Both the position numbers and the translations under genes were made by a program. Positions 39,529-54,780 of a stretch of DNA of 64,000 nucleotides are shown in pieces. Below the pieces are notes generated by a model, which was not told the DNA's origin, made no database searches, and saw only the letters and a list, made by a program, of their open reading frames with translations. The stretch lies in NCBI GenBank assembly GCA_019359375.1, contig JAHHHL010000034.1, positions 1 to 64,000 on the forward strand, given 5' to 3'. Source of the stretch: Lyngbya sp. HA4199-MV5 (lineage in GTDB: Bacteria; Cyanobacteriota; Cyanobacteriia; Leptolyngbyales; Leptolyngbyaceae). The stretch's first letter is position 1. Each line of letters opens with the position of its first letter.

Positions 39529-41691
39529 TCATTTGCCATTCCTGACATTCAGCCCTGTCCAGTGAGCCGCAAATGCCCACATATCTGCCGTTTCCTCAAT
39601 AGTCTTGTCGATGGGCTTGCCTGATCCATGTCCCGCTCGCGTCTCAATGCGGACAAGGTGGGGCTTGTCACCAATCTTCGCTGCCTGGAGTGCAGAGATA
39701 TATTTGAAGGTGTGACTCGGCACCACGCGATCGTCCGTGTCGGCAGTGGTGGCAAGGATCGCGGGATAGGTTTTGCCAGACTGGATGTTGTGATAGGGCG
39801 AGTATTTCAAGAGATTACGGAAATCCGCTTCCCGTGCCGGAGAGCCATATTCGTCTAACCATAATTTCCCGCCTGTGAACTGGTCGAAGCGGAGCATGTC
39901 CATCACACCAACCTGGGGCAGCGCGGCGGCGAACAAATCTGGTCGCTGATTGACCACTGCGCCGATCAGGAGTCCGCCATTCGATCCGCCCTGAATCGCC
40001 AGACCGTTTGGGGGCGTGATGCCCTGTGCCTTGAGATACTCACCCGCTGCGATGAAGTCGTCAAAGACGTTCTGCTTGTTCTGACGACGACCCGCTTCGT
40101 GCCATGCCTTACCATATTCGGAGCCACCGCGAATGTTGGCGATCGCGTACACTCCGCCCTGTTCGACCCATCCCAGCGGCGCTGGCAAGAATTCGGGAAG
40201 TATGGGGATGCCATAGCCGCCATAGGCATGGAGTACGGTCGGTGCGGCTGCGGTTACATCCTTGCGCCGGATGATAAACATGGGGATACGGGTGCCGTCC
40301 TTCGATTTATAGAACCGCTGTTCGACCGCGATCCGGTTGAGATCGATCGCCACCTTGGGTTGTGCCCACACCTGCGCCCTATTGCTGGCGACATCGTAGC
40401 GATAGATCACGGCTGGAGCATTATAGCTGGTGAAGATGAAGAAGGTTTCCGGGTCATCCGGGTCGCTCTTAAAGCCGCCAGCGGTGCCGATACCAGGCAA
40501 CTTCACCACACCATCCGCCTTGCCATCCAATGTGTAGCGTCGAATCTCCGTCTTCACGTCAACGAAAGCGGAGATCAGTATCCGTCCGCCGACCAGTGAC
40601 GCAGTGCCTAGAACTGAATCCTGCTCTGGCAGCACAGCCGTAATCACTGGGTCAGCAGCGGCGATATCCATCGTCACCACCTTGCGGCGCGGCGCATCCT
40701 GAGTGGTTCTGAGGAAAAACTTCGTCCCCACATTGCCGACGACGTTCCATTCATCATCGAGCTTATCGACCAGTTTACGGGGTTTCCAGTCGGTGCTCTG
40801 AAGATCTACCACAGTCAGTTTGTTGCCGACTGAAACGGGCGTGGAAACGATCGTGAGATAGCGCCCGTCTGCGGTGATGTCAACGGTATGCACCAGGGTC
40901 GGCTGATCTGGGGTGGCATAGACCAGCCGATCCTGTGTCTGAGGCGTGCCGAGCCGATGGAAATAAACGGTCTGATTTTCCGCAACTGCCTGGAATGCTT
41001 CGCCCTGCTTCGGTTCAGGAAACCGGGCATAGAAAAAGCCAGAGCCGTCCTTGATCCAGGCGATGCTGGTGAGCCTTGCCCATTTGACCTCATCGTTGAG
41101 CACTTTGCCCGTGTTGACATCCAGCACTCGAATTGTGCGCCAATCACTGCCACCATCCTGCACCGCATAAGCTACACGTCTACCGTCGTCGGAAGCTGAC
41201 CATTCAGCCAGCGCAGTCGCTCCGTCCTTTGACCAATTGTTGGGATCGATCAGCACGCGCCCTGCACCATTCACGCTGTCCCGGACATGGAGAATCGGTT
41301 GGTTCTGAAGTCCAGAATTATGGAGGTAAAAGTACCGTCCACCCTGCTTGACCGGAATCGAAAATTGCTCAAAGTTGTACAACTGCTTGAGGCGCTCCTT
41401 GAAGATATCTCGACCTGGCAGCGTATTGAGATGAGCGTTGGTGACTTTGTTCTGTGATTCGACCCAGGCAGCAACTTGCTTATCGTTACGGACATCATTT
41501 TCTAGCCAGCGATAAGGGTCGGAAACCGTCTGCCCAAAAGGCTTTTCGACGACATCGCCCCGCCTGGTTTCAGGATAGGCGATCGTCGGCATCGTCGTTG
41601 CGGCTTCCGAGCAAGCGGAGGCTAAATGGGTAGTGAAGAGTAGCGCGATCGCGAACAGGGCTGCACGGCGCAGCGATATCTTGTTAATCAT
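39529..41691 (-). CDS. Prolyl oligopeptidase family serine peptidase (S9A), exported
   Basis: A 720-residue protease that would cut short peptides after proline outside the cytosol. It has an N-terminal signal peptide (residues about 1-30, ending LASAC, possibly lipid-modified), a family opening YPETRRGDVVE...DPYRWLEND, a beta-propeller to about 440, and an alpha/beta hydrolase domain. In that domain the nucleophile is in GGSNGG, the acid in TADTDDRVVPSHTFK and the histidine in RAGHGSGKP, so the triad is complete. The wording of the sequence is closer to proteobacterial than to cyanobacterial members in my judgement, which suggests transfer. The ATG has GGAG upstream. Confidence 0.92.
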   Translation of the reverse strand: MINKISLRRAALFAIALLFTTHLASACSEAATTMPTIAYPETRRGDVVEKPFGQTVSDPYRWLENDVRNDKQVAAWVESQNKVTNAHLNTLPGRDIFKERLKQLYNFEQFSIPVKQGGRYFYLHNSGLQNQPILHVRDSVNGAGRVLIDPNNWSKDGATALAEWSASDDGRRVAYAVQDGGSDWRTIRVLDVNTGKVLNDEVKWARLTSIAWIKDGSGFFYARFPEPKQGEAFQAVAENQTVYFHRLGTPQTQDRLVYATPDQPTLVHTVDITADGRYLTIVSTPVSVGNKLTVVDLQSTDWKPRKLVDKLDDEWNVVGNVGTKFFLRTTQDAPRRKVVTMDIAAADPVITAVLPEQDSVLGTASLVGGRILISAFVDVKTEIRRYTLDGKADGVVKLPGIGTAGGFKSDPDDPETFFIFTSYNAPAVIYRYDVASNRAQVWAQPKVAIDLNRIAVEQRFYKSKDGTRIPMFIIRRKDVTAAAPTVLHAYGGYGIPILPEFLPAPLGWVEQGGVYAIANIRGGSEYGKAWHEAGRRQNKQNVFDDFIAAGEYLKAQGITPPNGLAIQGGSNGGLLIGAVVNQRPDLFAAALPQVGVMDMLRFDQFTGGKLWLDEYGSPAREADFRNLLKYSPYHNIQSGKTYPAILATTADTDDRVVPSHTFKYISALQAAKIGDKPHLVRIETRAGHGSGKPIDKTIEETADMWAFAAHWTGLNVRNGK

Positions 41692-41740: not shown

Positions 41741-42436
41741 TTACAGCAACCATTGGATCAGCGGAGGAACCAGGTAGCGGAGCGAGAACGCCTCCCAGAT
41801 CGCGCCGACGATGAACAGTGGGAGCGTGGATAGGCTCAGCCAACCGAGCTGTTGCAGCCCACGAACGTAACCCTGACGATGGTTCCGAGCACCGATCGTT
41901 GCGGGGCGAATCCAAGATCGACCGAGGATGTATGCGCCGAACATGAGCAGGGCATAAGCCTGGAATTCGATGAGTGCTGTCAGCGAGTGCGGGATCAGTG
42001 TCACCGCCATAATCTTGGTAGTCGGAGCCATCGCTAAACCTAAAGTGAACGCCTTATACGCAAATATCGCGATGCCAGCGAAGGGAGCGATCAGCGAAGG
42101 GAGCACGATTAACAGCGCACCGGTCGAGACGTTGACTCCCAGGATGGTCAGCGAGAACAGCCAAGGGGTATTGAGTAGCGATCGAACAAGGTCTAACGTT
42201 CCGTTGTCTTCCAGGATGACCACCTGACCTGCACCTAGGTTGGGGAAAACCATCGCCGCTACTAACCCAGCGATGACTGAGCCATACACAATGGCGTTGA
42301 TAGTGAGATAGGCGCGAAAATTGGCGCGAATGATCTGGAAAGGTTTGCGAAGAAATCGCCGAAGCGGGTGTTTGGTCCTGGGAGTAAGTGGTCGTTGTGG
42401 AGAGTGGTCGTTGGTGGCGATCGTTTTGCGTGACAT
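41741..42436 (-). CDS. SpoIIM-like (stage II sporulation protein M family) membrane protein
   Basis: A 231-residue integral membrane protein with about five hydrophobic segments (near residues 45-70, 95-130, 140-160, 165-185 and 200-220). The conserved NAIVYGSVIAGLV near the start and the PHSLTALIEFQAYALLMFGAYILGRS block (about 151-176) match the SpoIIM/DUF95 family. In sporulating bacteria SpoIIM joins a peptidoglycan-remodelling complex; in cyanobacteria, which do not make endospores, the family's role is unknown. It lies 49 bases upstream of the prolyl oligopeptidase gene on the same strand, so the two probably form an operon. Confidence 0.85.
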   Translation of the reverse strand: MSRKTIATNDHSPQRPLTPRTKHPLRRFLRKPFQIIRANFRAYLTINAIVYGSVIAGLVAAMVFPNLGAGQVVILEDNGTLDLVRSLLNTPWLFSLTILGVNVSTGALLIVLPSLIAPFAGIAIFAYKAFTLGLAMAPTTKIMAVTLIPHSLTALIEFQAYALLMFGAYILGRSWIRPATIGARNHRQGYVRGLQQLGWLSLSTLPLFIVGAIWEAFSLRYLVPPLIQWLL

Positions 42437-43160: not shown

Positions 43161-43448
43161 TTATTCTCTGTACCAGACCCGCACACATTGAAAGCAGTTG
43201 ACTGTCAAACCTTGGCTGACCATCACTGGGTAGAAAGCATTACTGGTCGTCACTCCATAGACATCATCACTGGTGCCTTCGATGCGATCGGGTAAAACAA
43301 CGGTTTCAACATTGATCACCTGTATCGTTGTACGTTCAAGCCACTGATTGACCGCACTCACAACCTCAGCGAAGAGTTCATACTCGGAAGCTCCGCCGAA
43401 GGGTCCTCGTTCAGTAATCCGAGGCGCAAAATCTTTGTACTGAATCAT
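43161..43448 (-). CDS. Small protein of unknown function
   Basis: A 95-residue soluble protein with an alternating sheet-like pattern (TTIQVINVETVVLP, VYGVTTSN) and a final CFQCVRVWY. I do not recognise the family. The start at 43448 has AAGGTGGG upstream; the frame is open to 43499. It lies between the SDR gene and the membrane protein gene on the same strand. Confidence 0.6.
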   Translation of the reverse strand: MIQYKDFAPRITERGPFGGASEYELFAEVVSAVNQWLERTTIQVINVETVVLPDRIEGTSDDVYGVTTSNAFYPVMVSQGLTVNCFQCVRVWYRE

Positions 43449-43543
43449 GTTATTTCCCACCTTAAACTTGTAGAGTTGACCATCACTGCAAGAAACCATC
43501 GGGATTTGATTTATTGATGGATCGATTCACTGCGATTCCACCA

Positions 43544-44299
43544 TCAACTCGCTGTATAGCCGCCATCGATCGCTAAGGGTTGTCCCGTAATGTAGCTGGC
43601 GGCATCAGAGCAGAGAAACACAACCGCTTGAGCAATTTCCGTTGCCTGACCGATCCGACCCATTGAAACCATCGACCCAAGATCATCGAACGTGATGCCC
43701 ATCTGGTCAGCGCTACGAGCCATGAGATCAGTTGCGATCGGACCCGGATTGACCGCATTGATCCGAATGCCCTGTTTGGCATAATCGAGGGCAGCCGATC
43801 GCGTTAGTCCCATCACTGCATGTTTGCTGGCAACGTAAGGAGAGATCCCCGGAAGCGCAACAAGACCATTCGTTGACGAGTTGTTCACTATCGCGCCTGC
43901 GCCCTGGGTTAGCATCTGCTGAATTTCGTATTTCATACAGAGGAATAGCCCTCGCGCATTGACCGACATAATCTTGTCAAAATTCTCGATCGATTGTTCA
44001 TGCAACGGTGCGACAACAAGATCGATGCCAGCATTGTTAAAGGCACAATCGAGTTTGCCGTAGGTGGCGATTACTTTTTGCACTAAGGCTTGCACGTCCG
44101 CTTCACTCGATACATCGGCTTTCACGAACAAGCATTCCGCCCCAGTTTCGCGAATCAAATAAGCCGTTTCTTCACCTTCTACACTGCGTATGTCCGAGAA
44201 AACAACTTTTGCACCCGCAGCACCGAACGCGATCGCCGTTGCACGACCAATTCCCGATGCGCCTCCAGTGACTAACGCCACTTTATCCTGAAGTATCAT
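43544..44299 (-). CDS. Short-chain dehydrogenase/reductase (classical SDR)
   Basis: A 251-residue NAD(P)-dependent oxidoreductase. The Rossmann motif TGGASGIGRA (about residues 11-20), an aspartate after the second strand (FSDI, favouring NAD), NNAG (about 88), the catalytic S in NNSSTNG and YVASK (Y-x-x-x-K) are all present. The C-terminal GQPLAIDGGYTA is standard. The substrate is unknown; the glucose/3-oxoacyl reductase-like group is nearest. A strong AGGAG ribosome site stands seven bases before the ATG. Confidence 0.93.
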   Translation of the reverse strand: MILQDKVALVTGGASGIGRATAIAFGAAGAKVVFSDIRSVEGEETAYLIRETGAECLFVKADVSSEADVQALVQKVIATYGKLDCAFNNAGIDLVVAPLHEQSIENFDKIMSVNARGLFLCMKYEIQQMLTQGAGAIVNNSSTNGLVALPGISPYVASKHAVMGLTRSAALDYAKQGIRINAVNPGPIATDLMARSADQMGITFDDLGSMVSMGRIGQATEIAQAVVFLCSDAASYITGQPLAIDGGYTAS

Positions 44300-44369: not shown

Positions 44370-45161
44370 TTAGACAAATCTTGCCAGCAAAAGGCTAAGA
44401 GCAAAGGACAAGGCATGAAAGCTGACATGGGATAACATCGCAGCCTCAAGCGAGTATTGCCAAAAGAGCCAACCAAACGCAATGCCAGCAATCCCATTGA
44501 GTAATAACGCCCGAATAATCACAAGTGGAGTGAGTGGAACGATCGCGGCAGTTGTGGGCAGGTGTAGAAGTCCAAATACCAGTGCCGCTAGCACAATCGC
44601 ACCTTGGTATATTCCTTGGCTTGGTAAGGTAATACCTTGTTTTAAGACTTTCCACGCGATCCAAATAAGCAGCGACATTAAGCCCCAGCGCATCAGAATT
44701 TCCTCAGTGATGCCGCCATAAAGCATTGCTGTAAGCGAACTCAGCCAATTCGGTTCTGTGTGATTGGATGCCTGTAGCGCTTCAGGTAGAGCAGGTTTCA
44801 TGAACCGATCGAGCAACAGGACAATGATTGTCGTCGCTGCACCCACACCCAAACTCCATTTCATCTCAATGACAGAATATGGCATCTTAGGGGTATGAAA
44901 TACCCAGGAGTCAATCAAATGTGAGTGTAATCCAACGCGATAGGCACAGCCAATTCCCACCAGAATGCTAATTGCTAGTAGAACTGTAGGCTGTAGTGCT
45001 TGCAGCAGCATTAAAACCCACAGTGGCGGAACGTTTGTCAGTTCTTCTGGAGACAGTTGTGCCAACCGTTGCTCAACGAATGGAACCGACGTAATCGCAA
45101 GCATCACAATTCCCGCAATGCCCAACACAAAGAGAATCCCAAATTGTTTCAAAACTGCCAT
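44370..45161 (-). CDS. CPBP family intramembrane glutamic endopeptidase (first)
   Basis: A 263-residue integral membrane protease of the CPBP/Abi (CaaX prenyl protease 2) family with about seven hydrophobic segments. Motif 1 is EEILMRWGLMSLL (EExxxR form), motif 2 is FGLLHLPTT and the last helix has HVSFHALSFALS, so the active-site residues are kept. Starts at 45224 (TTG) or 45182 (ATG) are possible; 45161 begins just before the first helix. Roles known for the family include bacteriocin self-immunity and prenyl-protein processing; which applies here is unknown. Confidence 0.85.
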   Translation of the reverse strand: MAVLKQFGILFVLGIAGIVMLAITSVPFVEQRLAQLSPEELTNVPPLWVLMLLQALQPTVLLAISILVGIGCAYRVGLHSHLIDSWVFHTPKMPYSVIEMKWSLGVGAATTIIVLLLDRFMKPALPEALQASNHTEPNWLSSLTAMLYGGITEEILMRWGLMSLLIWIAWKVLKQGITLPSQGIYQGAIVLAALVFGLLHLPTTAAIVPLTPLVIIRALLLNGIAGIAFGWLFWQYSLEAAMLSHVSFHALSFALSLLLARFV

Positions 45162-45266
45162 TGCTTTAATCTCTAGAGACATCAGAAGACTGGGTAGACA
45201 CAGTGCCAAAATAAAGAACGGCAATAGTTCGCTTCAGTATCATCTGATTGAGCACCCCTAACAATT

Positions 45267-45944
45267 TCATCCGCCATTGGTTGCACCCAGAGTTGCGACT
45301 GCTTGAACGGCGAAAATTGCCTTTGAAACGGCTTGACCAACCAACTCCTCTCTTGCGATCGCCTTAATTCGCGATCGCGCTTCAAGACGTTCTTCAGGTC
45401 TAAACACTGCATCAGTCAGGTGAGAGGCTTGCATCAAACTAATCAATGCTGCCATCCGAGAATCCAGTCCAATGCCTTCTAACACGGCGGCACGAACTTG
45501 CTGGACAATCTCGCGTTGAATCGATTCATCGATTAGAAAATATCGCTGCGTTGGGAATAGCCCAAGAATGCGTTGCTCTTGTCGTTCTAAAACCCCTAAA
45601 TCAGCTAAGTTCTGCAACACAATCGTTTGCATTCCTCTGTATCTTCGTCTCCAACGAGTCACCCAGAACCTTGCAGTTCGAGGACGAGACGATGCTAGAA
45701 CCTCGTTGAGGCGTTGATCTAAGAATTCATTGCCTGTGTTGCCTGTGGTGGCTTGCCCGTGCGAAGCACGTATCGCACCGATCACACGATTGTCGTTGTC
45801 GATCTCAAGTTTGGCTTCCAGTACTAAGTCTAGTAATAAAGAACCGACCAAGCCACAGTCGAGTGCAGAGTAGAAAGAGAAGCGAGTTTTCCCAGTTTGG
45901 GGATTGAGTGCAAGAAGGATTAAATCCTGTGAAAGATATTGCAT
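45267..45944 (-). CDS. GPP34 (GOLPH3-like) family protein
   Basis: A 225-residue mostly helical protein of the GPP34 family, related to eukaryotic Golgi phosphoprotein 3. The signature LSQDLILLALNPQTGKTRFSF...CGLVGSLLLDL (about residues 4-40) and LGVLERQEQRILGLFPTQRY are present. GOLPH3 binds phosphatidylinositol-4-phosphate at membranes; bacterial members are unstudied and lack that lipid as a usual partner. The ATG at 45944 has AGGA upstream; the frame continues upstream only because it reads through the tail of a decayed CPBP gene. Confidence 0.87.
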   Translation of the reverse strand: MQYLSQDLILLALNPQTGKTRFSFYSALDCGLVGSLLLDLVLEAKLEIDNDNRVIGAIRASHGQATTGNTGNEFLDQRLNEVLASSRPRTARFWVTRWRRRYRGMQTIVLQNLADLGVLERQEQRILGLFPTQRYFLIDESIQREIVQQVRAAVLEGIGLDSRMAALISLMQASHLTDAVFRPEERLEARSRIKAIAREELVGQAVSKAIFAVQAVATLGATNGG

Positions 45945-45974
45945 GATGAATTCCTGATTGAGGTGTGTGCGGTT

Positions 45975-46043
45975 CCTCATGCCAGCAGCTACCATCACCG
46001 AGGTAATGGACAGGTTGAAAACGACGTGAATGACGACGGCAGG
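45975..46043 (-). pseudogene. Remnant of a CPBP protease C terminus
   Basis: Read on the minus strand, this stretch encodes PAVVIHVVFNLSITSVMV, which matches the last helix of the intact CPBP protein at 46944-47690 (PGLIVHVVFNLPSFLLMV), including the conserved histidine and asparagine. DNA identity to 46970-47020 is also clear. There is no upstream CPBP domain: the sequence before it is the end of the frameshifted NTF2 gene. It is therefore a fragment left by a deletion or recombination. Confidence 0.75.
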
Positions 46044-46383
46044 TCAGACCGAGGTTTTGATAACGAAAGCCTTTAATTCGACAATTTTGCCGCCGCGAAA
46101 GCGCCAGACATCGCAATACGAGTAATGAGCCATCTTCCCGTCTTCGTCCTTCATTGTGATGTCGCCGAGTGCCGTGAGGAAATCACCTTCAGCGATCAAG
46201 TTAGCGACCATAAACGTATGTCGTTGCCATCCATTGGCGAACGGCTTCCTTTCCTTGAAGGGTTTTATCGCCTACAAACGTCCATTCCGTGTCATCGGCG
46301 CAGAACGACAGGAATCCTTCATTGTTGCCTTCAGCGATCGCCGCGTTTCCCTCTAATAAAATTACTTTATTGTTCTCTGACAT
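46044..46383 (-). pseudogene. NTF2/SnoaL-like protein, frameshifted
   Basis: The first frame begins MSENNKVILLEGNAAI and runs to VRQWMATTYV (about 57 residues, stop at 46201). The next part is in another frame: FMVANLIAEGDFLTALGDIT...YCDVWRFRGGKIVELKAFV. Joined, they give a normal ~112-residue SnoaL-like fold with its ending VWRFRGGKIVE. The total of 340 bases is one more than a multiple of three, so one small insertion or deletion near 46205-46225 broke it. A good AGGAGAG ribosome site remains, so the damage seems recent; a sequencing error is the other possibility. Confidence 0.8.
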
Positions 46384-46445
46384 TTGCCTCTCTCCTGTGT
46401 TCAAGTGAATGTTTTAATGGAGCGGTTTTCCGTCTTGTGCGAAAC

Positions 46446-46847
46446 TCACGGAATAATTGCAGTCACGCGGATCTCAATCCGCATCGTTGGAAGTGCAAGC
46501 GCTGCAACTCCTACCTCTGTCCAAATGGGGGCATGATTGGGCATGTAATGACGAAAGAGCCTGACCATCACCTCGTTAACCTCTGGAGGAAACCCGCCAA
46601 CATGGTAAGAATTAACGTGGACAACATGCTCCCAACTCGCTCCAGCCGTCGCCAGGGTGCGCTCTACGTTCCGAAACGCCTGAGCAATCTCGTCCGCAAG
46701 CGACTCGGGAATTTGCAGATTGTCATCCACCCCGCCTTGTCCTGATGTCTCCACTCGATCGCCAATTTTGACCGCTTGCGAGTAATGCAATTCATTTAAC
46801 ATGTGTTCCCCATAGCCGGGAGTGATAAAAAACTTGGGCTGATTCAT
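46446..46847 (-). CDS. RidA (YjgF/YER057c/UK114) family protein
   Basis: A 133-residue trimeric protein of the Rid family, members of which hydrolyse reactive enamine/imine intermediates. ETSGQGGVDD near residue 33, AFRNVERTLATAGASWEHVVHVNSYHV in the middle and APIWTEVGVAALALPTMRIEIRVTA at the end fit the family. In true RidA the last segment has an arginine in R-x-x-x-x-x-x-L-P; here TEVGVAALALPTMRIEI lacks that arginine at the usual place, so it may belong to a subgroup (Rid4-7) with other activity. AAGGA precedes the ATG. Confidence 0.85.
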   Translation of the reverse strand: MNQPKFFITPGYGEHMLNELHYSQAVKIGDRVETSGQGGVDDNLQIPESLADEIAQAFRNVERTLATAGASWEHVVHVNSYHVGGFPPEVNEVMVRLFRHYMPNHAPIWTEVGVAALALPTMRIEIRVTAIIP

Positions 46848-46943
46848 GGTGTTCCTTGGTTCAGTATGTTTGACTCTATTTCGCATTGCTAAGACAGCTT
46901 GCAAGATCTGATTGACTTGAGATTGACTTGAAGAGACATCAGG

Positions 46944-47690
46944 TCAGCCCGTGCTGGTGAACAACACCATGAGCAGAAACGAGGGCAGGTTGAAGACGAC
47001 GTGGACGATGAGACCGGGCCAGATCGATCCACTGCGACGAAAGACCTCGGCGGTAGCGAGACCAGCCACCACGGCAGCGGGGAAGATGTTGTTGATACCA
47101 TGCATGAGAGCGAAGATCACAGTGCTGCCCACGACCGCGACGAATGGACCGTAGCGCAGCAGCGCGTTGGTGACGATGCCGCGATAGAGCAGTTCCTCGC
47201 CGAGGGGTGAGAAGACCGCGATGAACACCGTGGATAACACCAGAGAGAGTACCCCGCCGCGAGCGCCATCTCCGTAAACATCCTGGACATTGTTCGTGTC
47301 CCCGGCGATTTGAACCCAGGCAAGGATCGCCAGACTCTTAAGCACGAAGGCGACCAGTCCGACTCCAACCCCGATCAGGAGCCAGCGAACAGAGGTGCGG
47401 CGCACACCGAAGGCTCTCAGGGAACGAATCCGCAGCCGCACAGCCACTACGAACGCAATTAGCGTGGCGACACCCGTCCAGGAAGTCAAAATTAGACCGT
47501 AAACCCCAGGATCGAGACCGAGCCGCTTGAACTGTGAGATACTGACGAACCCGACGATCGCATAGACAACGAGACCCACAATGATTTCGAGCCAGCCTGG
47601 ACGGGAGGGCTTGTTGGGTGCGAACCGCTCTGAAGAGTTGGCGGTGGGCTTTCCCGTGTCCTGTGGATGGTGAGAAGACACTTTAGACAT
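46944..47690 (-). CDS. CPBP family intramembrane metalloprotease (second)
   Basis: A 248-residue membrane protease of the CPBP/Abi family with seven or eight hydrophobic segments. The motifs are GEELLYRGIVTNALLRYG (EExxxR), FALMHGINN and GLIVHVVFNLPS, so it should be active. The N-terminal ~35 residues are soluble and rich in Ser and Pro. The DNA is visibly richer in G and C than the surrounding cyanobacterial genes, and the wording recalls actinobacterial members; transfer is likely. AGGAG stands upstream of the ATG. The decayed fragment at 45975-46043 derives from a relative of this gene. Confidence 0.88.
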   Translation of the reverse strand: MSKVSSHHPQDTGKPTANSSERFAPNKPSRPGWLEIIVGLVVYAIVGFVSISQFKRLGLDPGVYGLILTSWTGVATLIAFVVAVRLRIRSLRAFGVRRTSVRWLLIGVGVGLVAFVLKSLAILAWVQIAGDTNNVQDVYGDGARGGVLSLVLSTVFIAVFSPLGEELLYRGIVTNALLRYGPFVAVVGSTVIFALMHGINNIFPAAVVAGLATAEVFRRSGSIWPGLIVHVVFNLPSFLLMVLFTSTG

Positions 47691-47756
47691 AATCCATTTA
47701 CTCCTAGATTCTCTTTGTCTTCGTTCACTTGAGCGTAGTGAGTTCCAACACTCAAC

Positions 47757-48725
47757 TTATTCCAGATTCTTATGGAGTTTCTTCGGTTGTTCGCGTTTGA
47801 ACACCTTGTAGGCGATCGCCAAAAACACAGGGACTGTAACCAGCACTGACAGCGCTCCGTAGGTCGCGTGGTACTCGCTGACTGTGAACAGAGTGGGCGC
47901 GGTCACGACGGCGCCAGTTGCTTTGACCAGGAGGAAGCCAACGATGTTGTTTGCGAAGTGTACGCCGATGGCAAGCTCAGTAGTTCCGTCAATCAACGAG
48001 ACTACAGTCCACACCAGACCCGGAACGAGGAAGTAGTTGAAGAAGACCGTGAGCCAGCCGCCCGCGCTTGCCTCCGGGTTGAGGAGATGCGGCAGGGTAA
48101 ATATCACGGCTGACACAAGCGCCAGAAAGACGCGGTTCGTCCAAATAATGCTCGCGCCCTGCACGATATATCCGCGAAAGAAAAGCTCCTCCGTGGTGGT
48201 TTGGATCGCAGTGAGAATCAGTGCCAGCGGGACGAAGAATGCGAACGTCGTGAGGTCGGAATTGAAGGAAAAGGTGTTGGGATAGAAGAAGTACTCTCCC
48301 AGCACACCGATGAGGCAGACTGGCACGAACCACGCCACAAACCCGTGACCGACACGCCGCCAGTTGATCTGCTCCCGCGCCGTGACCAGCGTCCGGGGGT
48401 GGCGGCGGTGAATTCCAACGACGGCAATGAGAATTCCTGCGAGGAAGAACGGGAACCCCGCCATGATCGGCAGAAAGTTGCCAAAGGGACCGAGCAAGGA
48501 GTAATCTCCCTTCCCGAACGCGATAAGCCCCTCCTGACCGCCGAACAAGAACGCGACGAGCGGGGCGGCAATGCCGCCGACCACCAGCCATGCAAAGAGG
48601 ATGACGACTAATCCCAGAACATACCGCCACCCCCGATACTTACCCCACCGGGCAGCCTCCACGTAAGTGGCTTCTTTCGCTTGCGTTCCGATTCCCTGCT
48701 TTCCTTTGATTGCTTTGATCCTCAT
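47757..48725 (-). CDS. CPBP family intramembrane metalloprotease (third)
   Basis: A 322-residue membrane protease, longer than its neighbours because of an N-terminal soluble part (about 35 residues) and two extra hydrophobic segments. Motifs are TTEELFFRGYIVQGA, FTLPHLLNPE and GVHFANNIVGF. It lies 66 bases upstream of the second CPBP gene on the same strand, so they probably share a transcript. GC content is high here as well, and GCGATCGC sites are rare over the stretch, both signs of foreign origin. AGGAG precedes the ATG at seven bases. Confidence 0.88.
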   Translation of the reverse strand: MRIKAIKGKQGIGTQAKEATYVEAARWGKYRGWRYVLGLVVILFAWLVVGGIAAPLVAFLFGGQEGLIAFGKGDYSLLGPFGNFLPIMAGFPFFLAGILIAVVGIHRRHPRTLVTAREQINWRRVGHGFVAWFVPVCLIGVLGEYFFYPNTFSFNSDLTTFAFFVPLALILTAIQTTTEELFFRGYIVQGASIIWTNRVFLALVSAVIFTLPHLLNPEASAGGWLTVFFNYFLVPGLVWTVVSLIDGTTELAIGVHFANNIVGFLLVKATGAVVTAPTLFTVSEYHATYGALSVLVTVPVFLAIAYKVFKREQPKKLHKNLE

Positions 48726-48805: not shown

Positions 48806-49102
48806 TTACTTCTGAGGCATGGGAGAACGCTTACACTGAATTGCCTTCACATTTCGTAGATAGTTCAACTCAGGCTCGAAATTCGTGGGACAGTTGACAT
48901 ACACAATGTCCTGAGGTCGGCTAATAACCAAACGGTAAGCAGGTGGAATCCCTTCAGAACTTTTGATGATTTTGATTCTGGGAATCACTTGTATATTGAC
49001 TTGAGCCAAAGATGGAACACTGAACAGCACCAATAGGCTAAGCAGGATTGTTGCTGAGACAATTCGCGGCGATCGTTGAAGTCTAGACAAAATCTTGTTC
49101 AT
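48806..49102 (-). CDS. Small secreted protein of unknown function
   Basis: A 98-residue protein with a clear signal peptide (IVSATILLSLLVLFSVPSLA, cleavage after SLAQ near residue 34). The mature ~64 residues carry two cysteines (YVNCPTNF and IQCKRS), probably one disulfide. I do not recognise the family. A full AGGAGG ribosome site precedes the ATG. It lies 30 bases downstream of the peptidoglycan-binding protein gene, likely in one transcript. Confidence 0.65.
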   Translation of the reverse strand: MNKILSRLQRSPRIVSATILLSLLVLFSVPSLAQVNIQVIPRIKIIKSSEGIPPAYRLVISRPQDIVYVNCPTNFEPELNYLRNVKAIQCKRSPMPQK

Positions 49103-49132: not shown

Positions 49133-49594
49133 TTAATAGGATTTCCAGGGAAGCGGCGATCGATAGGGATTCTCCCGCATATCCAGCACTTCCCAGGTCA
49201 CAGGGTTAACCTGTCCTGTGACGGGGATGTTGTAGCGTCGTTGTAAATCTCTCACCGCAGACTCTGTAGTTGCGCCAAATGCACCATCAACAGCGGCACC
49301 ACTCGGATTTCCTAACCGAACTCCAGCAGCATTTAAGAACCCATTATCTGAGAGAATTTGCTGCAACATTTGCACTCTGCTGCCGCGATCGCCCCGTCTC
49401 AAGGTAGGCAATGTGCGATTCGTGTAGGCGGTTGCAACGAGAAGAGGCGATTGTTGAGGTAGAGGGGTCGCGATCGCCGGATGCATTCGCAAAACCCCAA
49501 CCACTCCTGTTGTGACGACGATTGATAGAGTAGTTTTAGCAAGCATCGCAGTGATTCCAGAAATTGAGCGTTGTGTTGTGGTCGCTTTCATCAC
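49133..49594 (-). CDS. Exported peptidoglycan-binding domain protein
   Basis: A 153-residue protein with an N-terminal signal or anchor segment (about residues 15-37) and one PG_binding_1 domain (about 65-135): LRRGDRGSRVQMLQQILSDNGFLN...VDGAFGATTESAVRDLQRRYNIPVTGQVNPVTWEVL. Such domains hold proteins on the cell wall. No catalytic domain is attached, which is common in cyanobacteria. AGGAG precedes the ATG. It is the first gene of a small pair with the secreted protein at 48806. Confidence 0.88.
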   Translation of the reverse strand: MMKATTTQRSISGITAMLAKTTLSIVVTTGVVGVLRMHPAIATPLPQQSPLLVATAYTNRTLPTLRRGDRGSRVQMLQQILSDNGFLNAAGVRLGNPSGAAVDGAFGATTESAVRDLQRRYNIPVTGQVNPVTWEVLDMRENPYRSPLPWKSY

Positions 49595-49645: not shown

Positions 49646-49915
49646 TTACAACAGCATCAATTTCGCTCGTTCCACCCGCTGTTGAATCACGTACTGGTGT
49701 GGTGAAACTCCCATCGCTTGTTTGAATGCACTGACAAAATAAGTCGGGCTAAGATTCAGCGTCTCTGCAAGTTCAGTCAGTGACAAGTCTCGATCGCGTA
49801 GCGTCGGCTCTACCGAATCGAGGTGAGTCTGAATATAGTCGAGTACTTGTTGCAATTGGGTATGCGTTAAGCCTTTGTGCTTGAATTCAATCGTTGGCGT
49901 TGTAGTGGTTAGCAT
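49646..49915 (-). pseudogene. AraC family regulator fragment
   Basis: An 89-residue frame matching the first helix-turn-helix and linker of an AraC DNA-binding domain (LSLTELAETLNLSPTYFVSAFKQAMGVSPHQYVIQQRVERAKLMLL). It then stops exactly where the second helix-turn-helix should begin, and it has no sensing domain. It aligns with residues about 180-240 of the complete AraC protein at 33226-34098. No clear ribosome site is present. It is most likely a remnant; a functional half-domain is less likely. Confidence 0.7.
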
Positions 49916-50108: not shown

Positions 50109-50666
50109 TTAGTGACTTGCAGCAATCATGGCTGTCATCAACTCTGTCATCTTCCAACGTCCGGCATATTGAATTCCATTGATGAACAGAGCTGGAGCGG
50201 TCATTACTCCACTCTGCAATCCACCTTCGATATCTTCATTGATGCGATCGACATGCACTTGTTTAGATAATTCTTTGAGAAACTGAGGCATGTCAAGCCC
50301 TATATCATTGGCGTACTCGATAAGATAACCGTTCTCCAACTTTTGTTGATGGGCAAATAAAGTGTCGTGCATTAACCAAAACTGCCCTTGGGCAGCGGCA
50401 GCTTGGGTGGCTTGGGCAGCCCGTTGAGCATGAAAATGGATCTGTGCTTGCGGAAAATGACGGAAGATAAGGCATAAATAATCTTCTCCAAAAGCAGCAC
50501 TCAGCTCTCGCTTGATCACTTTAATCAGCTTGTAAACGTCCGCACTTCTGGAGTCTTGATAGTCTCCATACATCACCAGCACGACCCTGGCACTCAGCAC
50601 ACCTTGCATCCAATCTTCGGTTGACGGTGGGACAAGTAAGGAACTGTGGCTACGATCGTCGTTCAT
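50109..50666 (-). CDS. DsbA-like thioredoxin-fold protein lacking the CxxC motif
   Basis: A 185-residue thioredoxin-fold protein of the DsbA/FrnE type. The order is right: VLVMYGDYQDSRSADVYKLIK at the active-site helix, LIFRHFPQAQIHFHAQRAAQATQAA in the middle, FWLMHDTLFAHQQKL, and VMTAPALFINGIQYAG with the cis-proline. Where disulfide oxidoreductases have CxxC there is DSRS, and the protein contains only one cysteine, so it cannot do dithiol exchange. No signal peptide is present, so it is cytosolic. A binding or glutathione-dependent role is possible, but not shown. Confidence 0.83.
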   Translation of the reverse strand: MNDDRSHSSLLVPPSTEDWMQGVLSARVVLVMYGDYQDSRSADVYKLIKVIKRELSAAFGEDYLCLIFRHFPQAQIHFHAQRAAQATQAAAAQGQFWLMHDTLFAHQQKLENGYLIEYANDIGLDMPQFLKELSKQVHVDRINEDIEGGLQSGVMTAPALFINGIQYAGRWKMTELMTAMIAASH

Positions 50667-50886
50667 CTCTCTACATCTGCATCAAGCATGGAACCTTGCA
50701 ATTGACTTGCTCAATCCATTGATTGCATAACTGTTTGTATAAATTCAATATAGGCGATCGGTTTCAAGCTGTCGTCTACAGTAAGTTAAAAGTTTTACAG
50801 TACAGATGGATAGAGTAACCATGCCATCGCGAAGTAGAAGGCTAGTTATAACTTAAGTTAGAATCATCACAGTGTGGAGGAAGGGA

Positions 50887-51564
50887 ATGGAAACACCTAA
50901 ACCTAGAAAACTGCTAACGATTGGGAAAGTTGCTCTAAATGATTTAATCCCGCTAATTCAGTTAGAAGAGGGCGGAATTGACGCTTACCCGTGGTTGGAG
51001 GATCAGGGTATCCCAATCACTGACGCTGAAAGGCAACAACTAGAAATTGTTCAATTGCGTCTGGCGAGTGATCCAACACATTTGCTGAACGAAGCGACCA
51101 TCTGGGCACGCGCGATTTATCCCTTACTGCTATTGGCAGAGCGGAACAGTATTCGAGCTTGGGCAGAAGTCGCATTGGCAGGACAATTTTCAACGTTTGA
51201 GATTTCTGGCATTGCTGATGGTGCATTGGGTCGGAGTATTGCAGGGCGGCTGATTTCACCCTATTTGGTCGTCGTTGAAACGAAACGAGGAATTGAAGGG
51301 GCGGACCCTATTCCTCAACTCTATGGGCAGATGCTTGCCGCTGCTTATCTCAACTGGAAATCTAATGCTCAAGCGGTGCAAGAAATCTTTGGATGCTACA
51401 CGATCGCGGATAGTTGGACGTTTCTGCGGGGCGAAGTCAGCCAGTTTGAGGCAGATTGCCCAATGCTAAAGGTTGAGTATTCTAGGGAATACAGCGAGAA
51501 ATATGACGCAGAGATTATCCTAAAAATTCTTAAACAAACGGTTGATCGCTATCTCACTCCCTAA
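50887..51564 (+). CDS. Putative PD-(D/E)XK nuclease-fold protein
   Basis: A 225-residue cytosolic protein. The segment EISGIADGALGR followed by YLVVVETKRG (about residues 115-145) has the spacing D....ExK of a PD-(D/E)XK nuclease core, followed by a helix with QLYGQMLAAAYLNW, the usual Q/Y-bearing helix. I recognise similar uncharacterised cyanobacterial proteins. It may be a restriction-like or DNA-repair endonuclease without its methyltransferase. The start at 50887 has GGAGGAAGGG upstream; the GTG-proximal frame start at 50872 would swallow that site. It stands alone. Confidence 0.6.
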   Translation: METPKPRKLLTIGKVALNDLIPLIQLEEGGIDAYPWLEDQGIPITDAERQQLEIVQLRLASDPTHLLNEATIWARAIYPLLLLAERNSIRAWAEVALAGQFSTFEISGIADGALGRSIAGRLISPYLVVVETKRGIEGADPIPQLYGQMLAAAYLNWKSNAQAVQEIFGCYTIADSWTFLRGEVSQFEADCPMLKVEYSREYSEKYDAEIILKILKQTVDRYLTP

Positions 51565-51650: not shown

Positions 51651-52277
51651 CTATAAATTGACAATGCCACGTTTAACGGCAACAATCACCGCTTGAGTGC
51701 GATCGCTGACATCTAACTTATTCAGAATGCGATTGACATGGGATTTAACTGTGCCTTCACCGATACTCAAAGCAGTCGCAATATCAGCATTGCTCATCCC
51801 CTGTGCTAGTGAGTGAAGTACTGCTAATTCTCTTTCACTCAGTTCTGGATTGCTGAGGCGCTGCACTAACTTTGCTCCCACATCGGGCGGAATATACTGC
51901 TGACCACGATGAACGGTGCGAATGGCATTCAGAAGCTCGTCAGGTTCAGTTTCTTTCAATAGATATCCTTTTGCGCCTGCCTGCAATCCCCGATAGATAT
52001 CTTCATCACTGTCATACGTGGTCAGTACAATAATTCGAGCCGATTTAGCAGTCGCACAAATGGCACCAATGGCAGCAACTCCTTCCACTTCCGGCATTCG
52101 TAGATCCATCAGCGTTACATCCGGTTGGTGTTCCCCGAATAGCGCGATCGCCTGTTCTCCATTTTCGGCTTGGGCAATCACGTTCATATCTGGGTCACGG
52201 TTAATAATCGTGGCTAATCCTTGCCGAAAAATAGCATGATCGTCCGCAATTAGAATCCGGATTTGAGGTGTGGGCAT
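51651..52277 (-). CDS. NarL/LuxR family response regulator
   Basis: A 208-residue two-domain regulator. The receiver (1-120) has D12-D13, the phosphoacceptor D58 in LMDLRMP, T/S at LTTYDSD and the lysine in GYLLKETEP. The C-terminal LuxR-type helix-turn-helix (about 140-205) has LSERELAVLHSLAQGMSNADIA and VKSHVNRILNKLDVSDRTQAV. It is the partner of the kinase encoded immediately upstream on the same strand; a ~200-base repeat-rich gap separates them. Targets are unknown. Confidence 0.95.
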   Translation of the reverse strand: MPTPQIRILIADDHAIFRQGLATIINRDPDMNVIAQAENGEQAIALFGEHQPDVTLMDLRMPEVEGVAAIGAICATAKSARIIVLTTYDSDEDIYRGLQAGAKGYLLKETEPDELLNAIRTVHRGQQYIPPDVGAKLVQRLSNPELSERELAVLHSLAQGMSNADIATALSIGEGTVKSHVNRILNKLDVSDRTQAVIVAVKRGIVNL

Positions 52278-52493
52278 AGGGTGTAGGGGTGTGGGGTGTT
52301 AGGGTGTGGAGGTTAGAAGATAGGACGCTTACTTAATCGTCTCCGCCAAAGCTTGCAGGGGGCGTAAGGGTGTAGGGTATGAATTTAGGAATAAGTTCAC
52401 TCTTACACTTCATTTTCACATCCAACTCTGCTCATACCCTACACCCCACACCCTACACCCTACACCCCTACCACTACACCCCAACTACTACAA
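52266..52493 (-). repeat. Tandem GTGTAGGG/GGGGTGT repeats between kinase and regulator
   Basis: Blocks of GGGTGTGGGGTGT and GTAGGGTGT occur at 52268-52315 and 52361-52380 and, as the complement (ACACCCCACACC), at 52433-52490, on both sides of a less repetitive core. The opposite orientation makes the region able to fold into a large hairpin. It overlaps the last bases of the kinase gene. Confidence 0.7.
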
Positions 52494-54780
52494 TAATCTC
52501 TGTTCCCTGCCCAGGTTGACTCTTAATCGTGAGTTGTGCGCCGATGCGCTCTGCCCGTTCGCTCATGCCGAGTAAGCCAAATCCTTCAGAGGCTGGCATA
52601 CTCCCCACTCCAAAGCCCTGTCCATTGTCTGTCACACGCAAGCAAACCTGATCGCGATCGTAGATTAATTCCACTCGAATTTCGTCAGCGTTGGCGTGTC
52701 TGATCGCATTGGTTAAGGCTTCCTGCCCCATCCGCAGCAGGTTATTCTCGACTTCAATCGGTAGAGCATACACTGCACCCGTGATCTCATCATATAAAGT
52801 GGTATCCATAGCGGCAGTTCTGAGTTGAGCCACGAGACGATGGAGCGCGCGCTGTAAACTGCCTTCCTCTAAAAGCTGAGGACGGAGCGCTACCACCGAT
52901 CGCCGCGCTTCAGTCAGACCAGTGCGTGCCAATTCTTTGATCAGATCCAGGTGTGCCTGAGTTGCTTCTAAATCATCCGTTAGCACCTGGTTTGCAGCGC
53001 CTACTTGAGCCAGAATGCCTGTAAACGCCTGAGCAAGGGTGTCATGAATTTCGCGTGCCATGCGATTACGTTCTTCTATAATCGACGCGGCTTCTGCTTG
53101 CTTTTGCAGCGTAATATCTCGCGCCAACCAAATCACCTGTTCGTGGTCGATTGGTGCAATGCGAGCCGAAAACCAGATTTCCCGTCCAGCTATCCACTGG
53201 CTGTATTCAACTGTGACTACTTGTTGGGTTCTCAGCACCTGCTGAATGTAACTCAGGAACTCATCAGCTTGTTCCTGAGCATAGATTTGATGCAGTGTTG
53301 TGCCAACATACTCCTCCCGATGCAACTCTCCATAGGACGGGTTCCCTTGAATGGCACAGATCAATTGCCCCTCAGCATTGAAGATACACATTGGATCGGG
53401 AATGGCTGAAAAGAGCGCCCGCAGTTCTGCTTCAGAGGCTTGCAATGCTGCTTCTGCCTGTTTGCGATCGCTAATATCGGCAATCACCCCTTCGATGTAT
53501 TTATCGTCTGCATTCAGATAAGAAGAGAAAAGCCCCCAAAACACTGTCCCATCTCGTTTTCGCAGCTGTGCTTCATAGCTTCGCACTTCCCCATCCTGCT
53601 TCAGCAACTCAATGTATTGTTGGCGATCGCTGGGATTTACAAAATAGCCGATGCTGTGTTCCAGTTCGATAATCTCCTCTGGTGAATCAAAGCCCAACAG
53701 ATTGGCAAGGCGTTGATTGGCATCGAGAAGTAATCCATCCGAGAAGCGGGTTCGGAAGATGCCGACCTGGGAGTTTTCAAAGATATTGCGGAACTTGGCT
53801 TCACTGCGTTGTAATGCCTCTTCTGCTTGCCTACGCTGGGTGGTGTCGTTGCCCACCGATAGGATTTCAACTAGCTCTCCCTGGTCATTGAAAATGGCTT
53901 GATTCGACCACTCCATCCAAACTCGCCGACCATCTCGACACAGGTTTTCACCCTCGCCATGCGGGTACGCTTGAGGATGACGAAGTAAATCACGGACAAA
54001 GGGTTTCATATCGCGTCCAGAGAGTTCGATGTCTGGAAGGATGGTTTCAAATAAGCTCCGCCCTAAAATCTCATGTTCTTCATAGCCCAGGAGTTTCACT
54101 CCATAATCGTTGATGTAGTGAATCCGTCCTTGCGGATCGTATCGAATAATGACTGAATTCGCGGTTTGTAGCAGGTTGCGATAATTCGCCTCACTTTGTC
54201 TCAAGGCGGCTTCAGTTTGTTGACGTTCCGCAACCTCCTGGTGTAAGGCTTGAGTTTGCTCTTCTACCTTCCTTTCCAGTGTTTCGGTATAGTCTGCTAA
54301 CCGCTCATATAACCGAGCATTCTCCAGTGAAATTGCTGCCTGAGCCATCAACAGTTTCAGGGCTTGCAAGCGATCGCTAGTAAATACTCCGGCATTAAGA
54401 TTGTTCTCCAAATAAAGAATGCCAATCAGATGACTCTGCTTGAGCATGGGCATACAGAGGAGCGATCGCGTTTGTTGGTGTTGAATATACGGATCAGTTG
54501 AAAAAGACGCTTCGCTAACCGCATCATCAAACACCAGCGTTTCTTGAGTGCGTTCTACCGAGTGAATGACGGAGACAGGAATCGTTGCACAGTCAGCAAC
54601 AGCAAGCTTTTTCAGGTCACACTGTCCACCGCTACATTGAGCTACCACAGTGAGTTGATCGGCTTCCAGGAGAACCAGAGCGCCTGTTTCGGCTCCTGCA
54701 TTTTCGATCACTGCCTGCATCAATGTGACAATTAATTGATCGAGATGGATGATTTCTGAGAGGACTTGAGCCGCTTTCAT
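52474..54780 (-). CDS. GAF-PAS-PAS-PAS sensor histidine kinase (NarX-type)
   Basis: A 768-residue cytosolic kinase with a GAF domain (about 10-160), a coiled segment (about 165-190), three PAS domains (about 195-310, 320-440, 445-560) and a HisKA_3/ATPase unit. The last has EERNRMAREIHDTLAQAFTGIL with the phosphorylated histidine, NLLRMGQEALTNAIRHA and DNGQGFG..., GFGLLGMSERAERIG. It pairs with the NarL-type regulator just downstream. The start of the GAF domain (AAQVLSEIIHLDQLIVTLMQAVIENAGAETGAL) is very like the GAF that follows the Ser/Thr kinase-AAA modules of large cyanobacterial sensor proteins. The gene may be a truncated descendant of such a protein, yet it starts with its own ATG. 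Confidence 0.92.
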   Translation of the reverse strand: MKAAQVLSEIIHLDQLIVTLMQAVIENAGAETGALVLLEADQLTVVAQCSGGQCDLKKLAVADCATIPVSVIHSVERTQETLVFDDAVSEASFSTDPYIQHQQTRSLLCMPMLKQSHLIGILYLENNLNAGVFTSDRLQALKLLMAQAAISLENARLYERLADYTETLERKVEEQTQALHQEVAERQQTEAALRQSEANYRNLLQTANSVIIRYDPQGRIHYINDYGVKLLGYEEHEILGRSLFETILPDIELSGRDMKPFVRDLLRHPQAYPHGEGENLCRDGRRVWMEWSNQAIFNDQGELVEILSVGNDTTQRRQAEEALQRSEAKFRNIFENSQVGIFRTRFSDGLLLDANQRLANLLGFDSPEEIIELEHSIGYFVNPSDRQQYIELLKQDGEVRSYEAQLRKRDGTVFWGLFSSYLNADDKYIEGVIADISDRKQAEAALQASEAELRALFSAIPDPMCIFNAEGQLICAIQGNPSYGELHREEYVGTTLHQIYAQEQADEFLSYIQQVLRTQQVVTVEYSQWIAGREIWFSARIAPIDHEQVIWLARDITLQKQAEAASIIEERNRMAREIHDTLAQAFTGILAQVGAANQVLTDDLEATQAHLDLIKELARTGLTEARRSVVALRPQLLEEGSLQRALHRLVAQLRTAAMDTTLYDEITGAVYALPIEVENNLLRMGQEALTNAIRHANADEIRVELIYDRDQVCLRVTDNGQGFGVGSMPASEGFGLLGMSERAERIGAQLTIKSQPGQGTEIIVVVGV

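Follow-up and report, generated by a model that had tools for sequence, protein, structure and literature searches.

The CPBP / Rce1-like intramembrane proteases (PF02517) carry the hallmark motifs EExxxR and a conserved His and His/Asn. By analogy with described proteins, members of this family might control a kinase (Abx1), process signal peptides (SilX) or cleave cyclic peptides (MlrA). Abx1 is described as binding and regulating CovS without protease activity (PMC3578759), SilX as encoded by a CPBP gene of a bacteriocin locus and argued not to confer immunity (PMC9298176), and MlrA as a protein placed in the CPBP family by which microcystin is linearized (PMC6914704). The subject of this analysis is a set of three CPBP genes, CPBP1, CPBP2 and CPBP3, present in positions 1 to 64,000 of contig JAHHHL010000034.1 of Lyngbya sp. 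HA4199-MV5, the whole of this 64,000-nucleotide stretch being termed the window. Comparisons of gene content and sequence suggest that these genes are probably cargo of a mosaic, mobile stress/detoxification array that is headed by a two-component system and circulates on cyanobacterial plasmids and chromosomes.

The locus resembles that of SilX (PMC9298176) in that a CPBP gene is clustered with a regulatory system. It differs from bacteriocin loci of this type in having no C39 exporter on the contig (peptidase-C39 was detected at four places in the genome, none of them on this contig; other exporter types were not searched) and no constant small peptide partner (sec14, a small protein encoded next to CPBP3, was the only candidate followed, and no genome-wide small-peptide search was made). 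The likeness to MlrA is one of protease family (PMC6914704). A laterally transmitted stress-gene island of another phylum, likened by description, is similar in outline; the array differs from it by the two-component head and by recombining cargo, with nearly every copy being different. No description of an array of this kind was found in the open-licence literature. A paper on Mastigocladus, consulted for a possible parallel, was set aside as unrelated.

CPBP genes and the array that contains them

Three intact CPBP genes were present on the minus strand where the initial annotation had placed them, namely, CPBP1 (44370-45161, the ATG-started part of an open reading frame listed from 45224), CPBP2 (46944-47690) and CPBP3 (47757-48725), with PF02517 scores of 42.2, 68.1 and 44.0 bits, respectively, against a Pfam cut-off of 22.4. 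The EExxxR motif and the conserved His/Asn residues were invariant in the three alignments of homologues (11, 7 and 9 sequences), the catalytic positions being E153/E154/R158, H200, H245 and H249 in CPBP1, E165/E166/R170, H197, H230 and N234 in CPBP2, and E179/E180/R184, H213, H256 and N259/N260 in CPBP3. A simple and rough hydropathy method detected four, seven and eight hydrophobic stretches in CPBP1, CPBP2 and CPBP3, respectively. The profile matches, motifs and hydrophobic segments showed that all three belong to the CPBP / Rce1-like family and are predicted proteases. They differ from the described members in that none reached an NCBIfam cut-off and in that profile searches with the three alignments found no relative among solved structures up to an E value of 1. 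PF02517 was detected at nine places in the genome of this strain (E ≤ 0.001), and the three on this contig were CPBP1, CPBP2 and CPBP3. Tandem duplication of one CPBP gene was ruled out, as the best E value in mutual BLASTP comparisons of the three proteins was 0.088; the cluster was therefore assembled from different subfamilies. The G+C content at third codon positions (GC3) was 0.72 for CPBP3, 0.70 for CPBP2 and 0.46 for CPBP1.

The CPBP genes are part of a co-directional array extending from ~39.5 to 54.8 kb of the window. A search of 58 genomes, including that of the strain itself, with the three CPBPs detected close homologues of all three within ~5 kb in three genomes (G002 C9, G006 C118 and G033 C1), CPBP2 adjoining CPBP1 in two others (G013 C241 and G051) and CPBP3 together with CPBP1 in another (G008 C32). 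The loci of relatives formed a longer co-directional row, with a histidine kinase and a NarL-type regulator at the head of the more complete ones. The suspicion that the clustering might be incidental, with orthologues in unrelated contexts, was not borne out: the three genes lie near one another in relatives too, and the orthologues occupy the same kind of array.

A genome scan with the CPBP3 alignment gave at least 79 loci among its best 80 matches. In at least 45 of these, all outside Actinomycetota, the best segment reached 60% identity or more; 44 carried cyanobacterial titles, and one lay in a bin labelled Chloroflexaceae. The CPBP3 of this bin (L089) branched with Nodosilinea, and the contig is probably a misassigned cyanobacterial one. 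A set of 63 loci, several of them from one genome, was compiled from the window, 16 loci of relatives, 42 from the scan and 4 from plasmids, excluding near-duplicates (L066, L077 and L083) and loci that were not cyanobacterial (L099, L101, L108 and L109). On scoring with one set of probes throughout, at least three array members were present in 62 of the 63 loci, all of which had been found via CPBP homology, the exception being L062.

Polarity was common to 582 of 585 recognized members, the kinase was the first recognized member in all 25 arrays having it, and in 29 of 30 arrays the regulator was followed by the DsbA-like protein within two recognized members. CPBP3 preceded CPBP2 in 19 of 20 cases, CPBP2 preceded CPBP1 in 14 of 15 and CPBP1 preceded hyp6, a conserved array protein, in 19 of 19. 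The 51 CPBP3 loci contained CPBP2 (20), CPBP1 (21), another CPBP (37), the regulator (26) and the DsbA-like protein (31), these contents being lower bounds as contig ends often cut loci. Sixty-one different arrangements were counted in 62 loci, a number inflated by contig ends and by a 10-kb flank limit; the comparison was therefore restricted to intervals delimited by a pair of anchors within one locus. Sixteen different interiors were detected in the 16 loci readable from regulator to hyp6, 13 in 26 loci from regulator to CPBP3 and 9 in 18 loci from CPBP3 to CPBP1. Both orders were seen for 100 of the 215 family pairs that co-occurred in at least five loci.

A second type of array (L079:9947-14715, L104 and L110) had the order CPBP3, another CPBP (~36% identity to CPBP1), a TAP-like hydrolase of ~580 amino acids, SpoIIM and hyp6; a TetR gene often preceded CPBP3.

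Plasmid copies and exchange of the gene pool

Homologues of CPBP3 with 66 to 74% identity were detected in PLSDB on five cyanobacterial plasmids of 283 to 307 kb, and four cyanobacterial genera carried copies of the array on plasmids of ~300 kb. All three CPBPs were found on plasmid C of Trichormus variabilis ATCC 29413, in T. variabilis 0441 (from plasmid matches alone) and on pB of Chroococcidiopsis CCNUC1, where CPBP3 is in two unannotated pieces. Plasmids of Nostoc MS1 and Gloeocapsopsis dulcis carried CPBP3 and CPBP1; both hosts were absent from the best 25 of 41 CPBP2 plasmid matches, one of the remainder having 60 to 80% identity. Plasmid C (NC_007412) and the Nostoc MS1 plasmid (NZ_AP023443) were typed as conjugative, and NZ_CP119970 and NZ_CP097482 as non-mobilizable. 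A class A beta-lactamase is annotated within the array of the Chroococcidiopsis plasmid (L219:15649-16440).

Identity at four-fold sites was compared between the window and hosts taken from their titles to be Nostocales. For rpoB the identity to 11 such hosts was 0.27 to 0.36 (mean, 0.33; shuffled, 0.24), while the means for array genes were 0.71 for CPBP3 (11 hosts), 0.59 for CPBP2 (7), 0.74 for CPBP1 (7), 0.72 for the kinase (8), the DsbA-like protein (9) and hyp6 (6), 0.63 for the regulator (8), 0.62 for a peptidoglycan-binding-domain protein (5 hosts; range, 0.38 to 0.78) and 0.93 for GPP34 (1 host), with shuffles averaging 0.25 to 0.30. The short-chain dehydrogenase/reductase (SDR) gene was left out of this shuffle-controlled test. 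Identity between chromosomal flank genes and those of congeners was 0.40 to 0.62 in 14 of 16 comparisons, each of these with at least 70 sites; the other two (3 and 10 sites) were set aside. The mean identities of the array genes tested were above that of rpoB, and these comparisons therefore showed, as judged from the sequences, that the gene pool has been exchanged horizontally, with copies on plasmids. GC3 was specific to each family whatever the host (CPBP3 mean, 0.72; standard deviation, 0.03; n = 43 copies; range, 0.68 to 0.89), and a CPBP3 tree, built by a quick method with Shimodaira-Hasegawa-like approximate likelihood ratio test (SH-aLRT) support only, mixed genera and families.

The window itself looks chromosomal from its gene content, its genes presumably including those for methionine synthase, MnmG, acetolactate synthase and glutamate dehydrogenase, as named from their translations. 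A gene flanking the array was present in all six other genomes of the genus. Four of these were readable for at least 5 kb past this gene and had none of the window's array genes there, the other two contigs being too short; in three congeners (G001, G004 and G005) none of the window's CPBPs had a close homologue. The chromosomal site of the array varies among close relatives. An empty site was not found, as the other flank of the window was not next to the conserved flank in the four readable congeners.

The initial annotation had also called for a check of co-transfer with actinobacterial relatives. A link of this kind holds to the extent that, among the matches listed and in the genomes searched (for CPBP2, fewer than all), the closest non-cyanobacterial relatives of CPBP3 and CPBP2 are in Actinomycetota; co-transfer as a unit was not seen, and transfer of a unit from Actinobacteria was rejected, the Desertihabitans homologues of CPBP3 and CPBP2 being on different contigs. 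Among 196 genomes from the order of Desertihabitans, a strong CPBP3 homologue was present in Desertihabitans only and a strong CPBP2 homologue in two genomes. In the quick CPBP3 tree, Desertihabitans (whose row is duplicated as L165) grouped with a cyanobacterial subgroup (SH-aLRT, 91); Nesterenkonia fell outside, with a support of 94 for the rest. Among non-cyanobacterial relatives of CPBP1 on plasmids, the best were haloarchaeal (~38% identity). Of three regions examined outside the cyanobacteria, two were annotated, and in these a CPBP2-type gene was located near an NTF2 gene (Devosia) or oxidoreductase genes (Sphingomonas).

Gene content of the array and a CPBP2 remnant

The array in the window is composed of the following features, in the direction of the array (names from Pfam unless another basis is given).

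52474..54780, minus: GAF/PAS histidine kinase (HisKA_3, HATPase_c), array head
51651..52277, minus: NarL/LuxR-type response regulator
50109..50666, minus: DsbA-like protein without CxxC; active-site stretch DYQDSRS
49646..49915, minus: AraC-type helix-turn-helix protein; short, 89 amino acids versus mostly 118 in relatives
49133..49594, minus: peptidoglycan-binding-domain protein
48806..49102, minus: sec14, small protein with a signal-peptide-like N terminus and two Cys in the mature part (from sequence)
47757..48725, minus: CPBP3, predicted membrane protease (PF02517; GC3 0.72)
46944..47690, minus: CPBP2, predicted membrane protease (PF02517; GC3 0.70)
46446..46844, minus: Rid-family (RidA-like) protein (Ribonuc_L-PSP)
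46044..46383, minus: SnoaL-like gene, broken; 14-bp deletion, last codons match CPBP2 sequence
45976..46052, minus: remnant, CPBP2 3′ tail fused to the SnoaL end (from nucleotide matches)
45267..45944, minus: GPP34-family protein
44370..45161, minus: CPBP1, predicted membrane protease (PF02517; GC3 0.46)
43544..44299, minus: SDR
43161..43463, minus: hyp6, conserved array protein; no Pfam match at E ≤ 0.1; in 32 of 62 arrays
41741..42436, minus: SpoIIM-like membrane protein (24.7 bits, slightly under the cut-off of 26.9); in 17 of 62 arrays
39529..41691, minus: probable prolyl oligopeptidase (a provisional name), far array end; in 5 of 62 arrays

The initial annotation had described a decayed CPBP tail starting at 46043. 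This tail is real and a true remnant of a fourth copy, beginning slightly upstream at ~46052. As a tree could not be built from so short a stretch, its origin was traced through nucleotide matches only: the minus-strand stretch 46060-45970 matched the 3′ ends of the CPBP2 genes of L047 (85% identity over 75 bp) and L048 (82% over 78 bp), and the window's own CPBP2 (76% over 45 bp). The SnoaL-like gene before it has a 14-bp deletion relative to L050. In L048 the uncut order is SnoaL-CPBP2-GPP34-CPBP1-SDR, while that of the window is SnoaL-(CPBP2 tail)-GPP34-CPBP1-SDR; the intact CPBP2 of the window lies behind CPBP3 and is of another type, with 88% identity to L051 and 69% to L048. Most of 19 non-duplicate SnoaL 3′ ends had a TEVKD-type tail, and an alternative end, whose final codons and stop correspond to CPBP2 sequence, was detected in three (the window, L047 and L050). 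This SnoaL/CPBP2 junction is common to three genomes of two genera; the CPBP2 tail is kept in L050, and only its first bases are left in L047. The nucleotide matches showed the fragment to be a deletion scar, the tail of an earlier CPBP2 removed behind SnoaL. Further remnants at junctions included AraC tails before CPBP3 and an SDR start before CPBP1. The varying positions of the junctions and the gene remnants at them may point to illegitimate or homologous recombination rather than to a fixed site common to all junctions, as in an integron cassette array.

The regulator of the window had 93 to 98% amino acid identity to most hosts compared and 78 to 79% in three loci, and an open reading frame of 230 amino acids (50872-51564, plus strand) lies between regulator and DsbA genes, opposite to the direction of the array. 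The active-site stretch was readable in 24 of 26 DsbA-like copies; it lacked the second Cys in these and had either Cys (DYQC) or Asp (DYQD) at the first position. No Pfam or NCBIfam match was obtained for sec14. A distant second type (L081, L083 and L104) has part of the pattern in common with it, the columns Y, L, D, V, C and EP being invariant; predicted structures of sec14 and hyp6 (mean predicted local distance difference test scores of 58 and 64) were too poor for searching. A prolyl-oligopeptidase-like gene directly follows hyp6 in L048.

Function of the array and alternative explanations

Ratios of nonsynonymous to synonymous substitution (dN/dS) were calculated for between-host pairs only (0.08 < dS < 0.7). 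The medians were 0.32 for CPBP3, 0.25 for both CPBP2 and CPBP1, 0.20 for the kinase and 0.06 for the regulator, and ranged from 0.06 to 0.36 across the 17 families measured. These ratios showed that the array genes are kept under purifying selection, with the cargo evolving faster. The recognized cargo is rich in oxidoreductases (SDR, zinc dehydrogenase and pirin), hydrolases, SnoaL/NTF2, Rid and envelope proteins, and GPP34, SpoIIM-like, peptidoglycan-binding and CPBP genes also change from array to array; a role in stress or detoxification is therefore suggested by these families.

The kinase may sense chemical or envelope stress, upon which the regulator would switch on the array, transcribed as a single unit or a few. 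Reactive or toxic small molecules could then be cleared by the soluble enzymes, and damaged membrane proteins or hostile peptides might be the targets of the CPBPs in the membrane. Cargo would be gained, lost and swapped through recombination at gene borders; here, the older CPBP2 that stood between SnoaL and GPP34 was deleted down to its tail, and a CPBP2 of another type is now located behind CPBP3. A more specific version, which we offer tentatively as one possibility, is a mobile cassette operon in which a fixed sensor-regulator-DsbA head on large plasmids drives swappable detoxification enzymes and membrane proteases as chemical defences particular to each strain, the pool being common to several orders and recombining at gene borders without a dedicated site.

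A number of observations weigh against the array having this function and mobility. A TetR gene was also recognized in 15 of the 51 CPBP3 loci, and the two-component head may therefore not control every member. Transposases are present between the kinase-regulator pair and the cargo on the Nostoc MS1 plasmid. The DsbA-like protein of the array head is without CxxC, which weakens a thiol-redox reading. As all loci were found via CPBP homology, several of them in one genome, the frequencies are biased. With regard to exchange, rpoB is a single constrained marker and the flank-gene control is genus-wide only; identities of CPBP2 to congeners G002 and G006 (0.57 and 0.53) were not above the range of the flank genes, those of the peptidoglycan-binding-domain protein fell to 0.38, and those of the multi-copy SDR were 0.16 to 0.73.

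An unlikely alternative is that the CPBPs are catabolic peptidases by which cyanopeptides or antibiotics are opened or cleaved, partnered by prolyl-oligopeptidase-like and TAP-like hydrolases. Microcystinase MlrA, which linearizes microcystin (PMC6914704), is of the same family, TAP-like hydrolases were found in 14 of 62 arrays and the prolyl-oligopeptidase-like protein in 5, and one plasmid array has the beta-lactamase; the peptidases are, however, inconstant, and the three CPBPs are mutually unrelated by BLASTP. The diversity of interiors between regulator and hyp6, the family pairs seen in both orders and the gene remnants at junctions would also fit a tolerated hot spot collecting passing genes without a common function, but such a scrapyard is improbable in view of the common polarity, the invariable first position of the kinase, the preferred order of the CPBPs and the low dN/dS medians in all 17 families. 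It is very doubtful that the CPBPs have a regulatory role, such as that of accessory proteins binding or tuning the kinase. They do lie beside a kinase-regulator pair, and Abx1 is reported to bind and regulate CovS, but not via protease activity (PMC3578759); however, only GAF, PAS and kinase domains were detected in the kinase with Pfam, the catalytic positions are invariant, and three unrelated CPBPs per kinase exceed what this model needs.

Self-immunity against a peptide made here now or formerly, the lost or current bacteriocin locus proposed in the initial annotation, has a literature on CAAX/Abi proteins and bacteriocin immunity behind it and sec14 directly upstream of CPBP3 in the window, L048 and L049, but is highly improbable in the light of the exporter and peptide results given above, of the presence of sec14 in 11 of 51 CPBP3, 6 of 24 CPBP2 and 8 of 26 CPBP1 loci (lower bounds because of contig ends) and of annotated neighbours that are mainly oxidoreductases, hydrolases and SnoaL/NTF2 proteins. 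An anti-phage function found no support: no PADLOC match was obtained with eight array proteins (E ≤ 0.01), the three CPBPs had no PHROGs match, and no phage record contained CPBP3, the only CPBP searched there.

If the CPBPs are indeed cargo of a mobile stress/detoxification array, these three puzzling proteases would be one visible part of a common cyanobacterial gene pool. The array on plasmid C of Trichormus (Anabaena) variabilis ATCC 29413 has the three CPBPs, the regulator and the kinase and gives access in a model strain; its regulator is AVA_RS28515, and AVA_RS28380-28510 are genes of the same array. The pool would then offer a natural system, with a testable regulator, in which to study the assembly and remodelling of operons by transfer.

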